Positions 6,623-7,166 of a stretch of 40,685 nt of DNA are shown here, piece after piece. Origin of the DNA: Deltaproteobacteria bacterium. GTDB taxonomy: Bacteria; Desulfobacterota; Syntrophobacteria; BM002. Each line of letters begins with the position of its first letter. Within the stretch, counting starts at the first letter, position 1. The translations under genes were made by a program, and so were the position numbers. A model generated the notes under the pieces. That model saw nothing but the letters and a program-made list of their open reading frames with translations, was not told the origin of the DNA and made no database searches. The stretch lies in NCBI GenBank assembly GCA_020347625.1, contig CP070735.1:2416976-2457660 (forward strand), written 5' to 3'.

Positions 6623-6706
6623 GAAGTTTTTTCCACTAAAGCCAGATCATAAGCCACGAAAGCTAAGCATAGTTGCGTTTTGAAGTCAACTGATTTAGCT
6701 CTATTA

Positions 6707-7022
6707 AGGAGTTTCCCCAAGAATGTCATATGCGAGGCATAGGGGAGGCTACCCCTATACCTTTGCGGGTGCCTCTTCTGAGTGACTGGCGGAAGGTCTG
6801 TAGCCACTTCCCCGGCTGTGTCTGGGGGAGCCCCTGGTCCCGTTCCCTAAGAACGGGGAACAGGGAGGGGGTGCCTTCCCCCGGTCACAGCCGGGCTTGA
6901 AGTGACCAGACCGTAAGACTCGGAACGACAGAAGAGGCACCAGGAAAGGTATTTTCATTCTTGAAACCAAGGCGAACTGGCTTTGTAGACAAAGATCAAT
7001 TATCAATTTTGGGGAAACTCCT
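6707..7022. mobile_element. 316-bp element with 14-bp terminal inverted repeats (MITE-like)
   Basis: AGGAGTTTCCCCAA (6707-6720) and TTGGGGAAACTCCT (7009-7022) are perfect 14-bp inverted repeats at the ends. Inside are a 7-bp hairpin (6739-6745 with 6752-6758) and a rod-like palindrome spanning 6757-6952. No transposase or credible ORF is present, and no target-site duplication is obvious next to the repeats. The structure fits a miniature inverted-repeat element or a structured RNA gene with flanking repeats. The repeats are seen; mobility is inferred. Confidence 0.4.
6757..6952. ncRNA. Rod-like structured RNA candidate (6S-like architecture)
   Basis: The segment folds on itself along its length. 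The closing stem pairs 6757-6764 with 6945-6952, then after a 3x3 loop 6768-6780 with 6929-6941 (13 perfect pairs). A bubble of 14 and 16 unpaired bases follows. An upper stem then pairs 6795-6800 with 6907-6912, 6805-6810 with 6899-6904, and 6811-6820 with 6886-6895. A G-rich/C-rich pairing (6822-6830 with 6875-6884) and an apical 7-bp hairpin (6839-6857) complete it. Length and a central bubble between two stems recall 6S RNA, but I could not match the conserved 6S bases, and the transcribed strand is unknown. It may instead be the interior of a miniature transposon. Confidence 0.35.
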
Positions 7023-7029
7023 GCAGGGT

Positions 7030-7035
7030 TATAAT
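7030..7035 (+). promoter_or_regulatory. Candidate -10 element for ilvA
   Basis: A perfect TATAAT lies eight bases after the right terminal repeat of the 316-bp element. The sequence 17 bases upstream (TTTTGG, at the edge of that element) is a poor -35. If used, it gives ilvA a leader of about 180 bases. Confidence 0.3.
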
Positions 7036-7084
7036 GGCTAATGGTGGGCTGATTTCAACCCGAACCGGTTCACAAATCTTTACA

Positions 7085-7166
7085 AGCCTCAAAAGGGTTA
7101 GTTGACGGCCAACCCTGGATTTGCTATGAGGCTAAAATGTCAAATTCCACCGCATCTTGTTTAGCC
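7085..7166 (+). promoter_or_regulatory. Mutually exclusive hairpins in the ilvA leader
   Basis: Hairpin A pairs AGCCTCA (7085-7091) with TGAGGCT (7127-7133) and encloses GGGTT (7095-7099) pairing with AACCC (7111-7115). Hairpin B pairs GGCTAAA (7130-7136) with TTTAGCC (7160-7166). Bases 7130-7133 are needed by both, so only one can form. No U-tract follows B, so it is not a standard terminator. The pairings are seen; a regulatory switch is inferred. Confidence 0.35.

Follow-up and report, generated by a model that had tools for sequence, protein, structure and literature searches.

The element at positions 6707–7022 of the window, which is the whole 40.7-kb stretch of DNA analysed, looks like an ordinary miniature inverted-repeat transposable element (MITE) and its family is unexpected in two respects, namely its precise placement upstream of promoters and its conserved RNA-like passenger. 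The reading that we consider very probable is that the family consists of non-autonomous, promoter-aimed DNA transposons carrying an RNA passenger, and that the copy in the window is the product of two insertion sites having been joined. The features of the window are the following:

6707–7022, plus strand: MITE-like element with type A ends, an internally deleted form (exact terminal inverted repeats, multiple copies, comparison of lengths)
6707–6720, plus strand: left terminal inverted repeat (TIR) AGGAGTTTCCCCAA; family consensus CAGGAGTTTCCCCAA
7009–7022, minus strand: right TIR TTGGGGAAACTCCT; the family repeat extends to the next base, G7023
6764–6948, plus strand: conserved structured core, matching positions 1–184 of model R1 with 201 bits (minus strand, 51 bits)
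6661–6689, minus strand: predicted queA promoter TTGACT-17-TTAGCT, conserved across relatives, its −35 beginning at offset 17 from the left TIR
7102–7130, plus strand: conserved predicted ilvA promoter TTGACG-17-TATGAG, 79 bp past the element
6683–6706, no strand: queA-side flank common to copy c1, which repeats AGCTCTATT on its other side
7007–7146, no strand: right TIR and ilvA-side flank; an inverted, identical stretch opens the contig of copy c2

As the preliminary description had said, the 14-bp TIRs of the 316-bp element (6707–6720, AGGAGTTTCCCCAA, and 7009–7022, TTGGGGAAACTCCT) are perfect and exact inverses of each other; no other perfect 14-bp inverted repeat with arms 100–1000 bp apart was present in the window. 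Across the family the TIR is best given as CAGGAGTTTCCCCAA, because G comes next outward in 77% of 129 ends. Only short mechanical ORFs were found across the element, in line with its having been called gene-less, and it does lie between divergent genes, with queA (PF02547) to the left on the minus strand and ilvA (PF00291 and ACT) to the right on the plus strand. The middle of the element is GC-rich, and the interior is made up of nested inverted repeats (24 nt at 92% and 19 nt at 89%) with a predicted fold of −173 kcal/mol (z = −10 relative to dinucleotide shuffles). The earlier wording, "palindromic rather than coding", was right about this inverted-repeat interior and overlooked a conserved, covarying and strand-specific RNA-like fold. 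Many full-length family members measure 452–465 bp, often about 459 bp, their core being separated from the left end by a left domain (CAACGAGCAATTCGCGCC...GCTCGTTGTTTCGCAGCC); this domain is missing from the window copy and from c1, both of which are therefore deletion forms.

BLAST revealed about 13 full or partial copies in the element's own genome (3.22 Mb, one scaffolded contig), in which the RNA model matched 16 times, at times on both strands of the same copy. The element was found in all nine of the same-genus genomes searched, one sister-genus genome contained 80 RNA-model matches and dozens of relatives of the element, and a third genus contained it weakly; these element counts rest on retrieved loci. 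No BLAST match was obtained in a fourth genus of the family or in the 47 more distant genomes searched, and the plasmid, phage and viral-contig collections searched yielded no match to the element. In the named collection the core motif was present at 78 loci, almost all of them from MAGs named Deltaproteobacteria or Desulfobacterota. A MAG with the label Zixiibacteriota (CP070839) begins with a core fragment (L167:1–77), for which misbinning or transfer is possible; this single Zixiibacteriota match was left out of the wider spread because it starts at a contig edge. Target duplications at the family level are 9–12 bp long, most often 10, and occur in many copies; they are common where the DNA on both sides is readable, examples of about 10 bp being GGAGTTCCTCC (c3), TTGATCTTTCC (c8), TATAACCCT (c2), GTAACTATGAA and GGATTCGGTG. 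The proposal that the element is a MITE is thus borne out by its many copies at unrelated sites, by the duplications at other copies and by a queA promoter that is element-free in relatives, and the single copy conserved at queA–ilvA that would have spoken against mobility is excluded, though the core evolves like a structured RNA. Mobility of this MITE-like family is well supported, and the family fits the description of a MITE save for a parent transposase, which was not found in the genomes searched.

The family stands at a fixed spacing to predicted promoters. When the 129 TIR ends were read outward, TTGA started at offset 13 or 14 in 37 of them, other offsets mostly giving one or two. Promoters were predicted from sequence with a sigma70 score that combines −35 and −10, and the −35 of the best predicted promoter starts 12–15 nt from one TIR in 37 of 49 two-ended elements. 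Counts at offsets 12, 13, 14 and 15 were 6, 14, 22 and 4, respectively, as against about one per offset elsewhere; the best predicted promoter was not at offset 12–15 in 12 of the 49, and the promoter of the window copy, that of queA, lies outside this range at offset 17. Among the 44 elements that remained after removal of near-identical sites, 29 had a strong −35 at offsets 11–18, which was faced by the left end 15 times and by the right end 14 times, these counts not being fully independent because copies are related by descent. The −10 score rose at a spacer of 17 only (mean 1.05 versus −1.3 to −4.0 at other spacers), and a strong −10 was present in 11 of the 29, the corresponding figures being 1.2% for −35-like sites across the loci as a whole and 3 of 89 for those in the intergenic DNA of the window. 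Of 42 cases, 29 had an ORF starting at most 350 nt downstream of the predicted promoter, and the remainder mostly had too little flank. Type B ends (n = 30), which served as a control, showed no promoter peak. The −35 box is thus separated from the element by the duplicated stretch, and the promoter stays whole. The spacing speaks for target choice, for a distance fixed within a few bp is not what survival alone would produce; with promoters as predicted here, the view that the family is aimed at sigma70-type promoters is strongly supported. At the window copy, a TATAAT is present at 7030–7035 (plus strand) beside the right end as reported; it is not the conserved ilvA promoter, and the idea that it drives ilvA is unsupported, ilvA having its own promoter at 7102–7130 that persists in relatives without the element there.

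Thirty-two cores were aligned over about 185 nt and showed long invariant stretches in internal loops. Compensatory base changes were frequent: 19 of 56 pairs were changed on both sides, double-changed cells numbered 133 versus 46 in shuffles, and 96% of cells were pairing versus less than 49% with the partners slid. In pairs of mostly Watson–Crick type, G·U cells on one strand outnumbered A·C cells by 52 to 16 (p = 1.4 × 10−5, a value that is indicative only because the sequences are related), whereas the corresponding transitions at unpaired positions were reversed (26 versus 46). The 17 divergent cores, nearly all from other families, gave 33 G·U versus 10 A·C. The excess of G·U over A·C therefore points to selection on the RNA from the strand that is plus in the window, and selection on the core as RNA is well supported by the alignment. 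A search of Rfam 15 at permissive thresholds with several kinds of copy returned no credible family and none at gathering score. Model R1, run on 395 genomes sampled from the phylum, matched the core in 9 of them, four further families included, with up to 32 matches in one genome. In one genome (G391; L188, L202, L207 and L211), cores lie close together in inverted pairs, with a few hundred bp separating the two, and these pairs adjoin conserved GCCCGCACCACCGGGAGAAGGGG sequence. Distal hairpin-arm deletions in L137, L150 and L161 end inside a short direct repeat of the core, GTGAC, as expected from slippage across the hairpin.

The sets of ends found around the core are unrelated to each other and number at least three, probably four:

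Type A, CAGGAGTTTCCCCAA: ends of the window element
Type B, 23–28 bp, TACTACGGAGAGCACTAAATAGTTTGCA: G000 C1:44629–44914 (L032); many in the sister genus
Type D, TTCATCCGGTTAATGAGTACG: genome G088
Further ends, TAGCTCAATAAATAGGG: genome G427, one copy

Type B elements, which include many loci of CP070692, make up a second MITE-like family with the core in common and no promoter preference. One element with type A ends, 287 bp long (L140:3840–4126), lacks the core and lies just upstream of a predicted promoter, and the end pairs listed for its genome suggest further elements of similar length. Because the core occurs with several ends and a type A element occurs without it, ends and core are separate modules, of which the ends would set the target and the core would be a passenger. 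Guidance of promoter targeting by the RNA core was rejected because the type B elements, which carry this core as well, have no promoter peak, the core-less L140 element upstream of a promoter also speaking against it, and a role of the core as a cis leader was rejected because its orientation to the promoter is random.

In the explanation that we favour, a transposase supplied in trans would act on the CAGGAGTTTCCCCAA ends, and insertion would be aimed at sigma70-type promoters with the duplicated target immediately upstream of the −35 box, as the position statistics indicate, leaving the promoter whole and facing away from either end. The integration complex may sense the promoter itself, for example as bound RNA polymerase or as promoter DNA shape; the expected position of the duplicated stretch is about −48 to −39, the region bound by the alpha C-terminal domain. 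The passenger of about 185 nt would be selected as RNA on one strand, also between unrelated ends, and most likely is a trans-acting RNA or a selfish module that aids the persistence of its carriers. The window copy combines the queA-side flank of one site with the ilvA-side flank of another, by recombination or by an assembly join. The more general proposition, that a bacterial TIR transposon finds its targets via the RNA polymerase holoenzyme at sigma70-type promoters, uses the position just before the −35 box as a safe site and carries a new class of structured RNA shared across carriers, is advanced tentatively and may well prove wrong.

Promoter sensing would be unnecessary if the transposase merely liked CTTGAC a few bases past the duplicated target, with promoters being targeted because they contain TTGAC and intergenic insertions surviving as harmless. 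The −35 motif, often with a C before it, is the sharpest part of the flank profile, and intergenic survival could raise the −10 enrichment somewhat; the motif alone, however, does not predict the enrichment of −10 at a spacer of 17 (11 of 29 versus 1.2% and 3 of 89), and we regard such a bare-motif preference as possible, if rather doubtful. A core conserved because transposition needs it as a hairpin or cruciform of DNA, and not as an RNA, would agree with its very stable fold and with the elements being mobile DNA. A hairpin favours neither strand, whereas G·U exceeds A·C on one strand in two largely separate sets, and the core is absent from an element with type A ends (L140) and present between unrelated ends; this explanation is unlikely. 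The notion of a stationary RNA gene or a regulator of queA and ilvA draws on the position between two promoters and on the conserved fold, but is contradicted by the many copies at unrelated sites, by the absence of the element from the queA–ilvA site in relatives and by the random orientation to the promoter; already refuted by the copy distribution, it retains hardly any probability.

The junction in the window calls for a separate weighing. No target duplication is present at the window copy, as had been stated. On the left it shares its flank, AAGTCAACTGATTTAGCTCTATT, with the left side of c1 (C1:3199349 onwards), on the right of which AGCTCTATT occurs again, followed by a DUF2065 gene (C1:3199783–3200001) found ahead of queA in relatives. 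On the right, 140 bp that include the TIR recur, inverted and without a difference, at the start of the contig of c2 (C1:296783–297233); beyond the far side of c2 comes a peptidase S49 (sppA-like) gene, which in relatives is the neighbour of ilvA and divergent from it. Both c1 and c2 have their own direct repeat, and the region upstream of queA is element-free in relatives with readable DNA there. The window copy is without a duplication because its left flank comes from the queA insertion site and its right flank from the ilvA site, and judged from these flanks it joins two insertion sites, either through recombination between copies or through an assembly join. That the queA–element–ilvA junction is an assembly chimera formed at a repeat, with no such copy in the cell, is a serious possibility falling a little short of even: c1 and c2 lie at 100-N scaffold joins and have flanks in common with the window copy, and in the 11 relatives where both queA and ilvA could be located the two are never neighbours, whereas the window copy lies inside an unbroken contig and differs from c1 by about 4%, so that it is no simple merge of c1 and c2. 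This difference, together with the lack of a simple c1/c2 patchwork, makes recombination between copies in part of the population plausible. The case is a warning that gene neighbourhoods in MAGs of this kind, like queA–ilvA, can be products of repeats.

In the available text of two papers, prokaryotic MITEs such as ERIC, MITEAba12, QMITE2 and BrickBuilt have intergenic or AT-rich targets and transcripts that fold (PMC10969869, PMC6382973). As far as these texts go, the present family is like them in being short and gene-less, in having TIRs, short target duplications, intergenic positions, many copies and predicted transcript folding, and unlike them in its fixed spacing to sigma70-type promoters, its GC-rich interior and its covarying RNA-like fold common to carriers with other ends; the same texts contain neither a fixed promoter distance nor a covarying RNA in unrelated carriers (PMC10969869, PMC6382973). 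Neither promoter-spaced insertion nor the passenger RNA was found in the reference libraries and open-licence literature searched. Ty1, Ty3 and the Dictyostelium TRE elements, retroelements that follow the RNA polymerase III machinery to their targets, integrate at a fixed distance upstream of transcription starts and spare the gene; the present family parallels them in fixed-distance integration and is instead a bacterial TIR element. If confirmed, it would be a bacterial parallel to the use of RNA polymerase III by Ty elements and a natural route for placing DNA upstream of active genes. HEARO/omega RNA and group II introns are likewise structured RNAs within bacterial mobile elements; the present element differs from them by its TIRs and target duplications and by the lack of any gene for a nuclease or reverse transcriptase. 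As a candidate RNA family the core is new, with conservation sufficient for biochemistry, and its occurrence between unrelated ends raises a testable question, that of the benefit of an RNA to a gene-less DNA transposon.

The preliminary description had looked to a transposase gene with the same ends as the parent; none was present in the own genome or in the relatives searched, and no transposase lay between type A ends in the genomes searched, whose assemblies are incomplete or fragmented. A DDE_Tnp_1 search of 12 genomes found elements, none with paired A ends, and the own genome gave no DDE_Tnp_1 match. Among the end positions listed for G002, G009 and G010, pairs 0.9–2.6 kb apart were sought and just short, MITE-sized pairs were found. 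A 422-aa DDE transposase gene (L183:901–2296) lies between ends AATACTACTACGTTAAGTAATT and adjoins a type A element at a scaffold join; it was rejected as the parent, being near an A end but within an element that has its own different ends. IS4-type insertion sequences (IS10, IS231 and ISH8 groups) give target duplications of 9–12 bp, as the present family does; it differs from them in that a DDE_Tnp_1 transposase was found between its ends in none of the genomes searched. The TCCCC-AA-like inner end of the element resembles that of IS10, and we treat the link to IS4-type sequences as a lead only.
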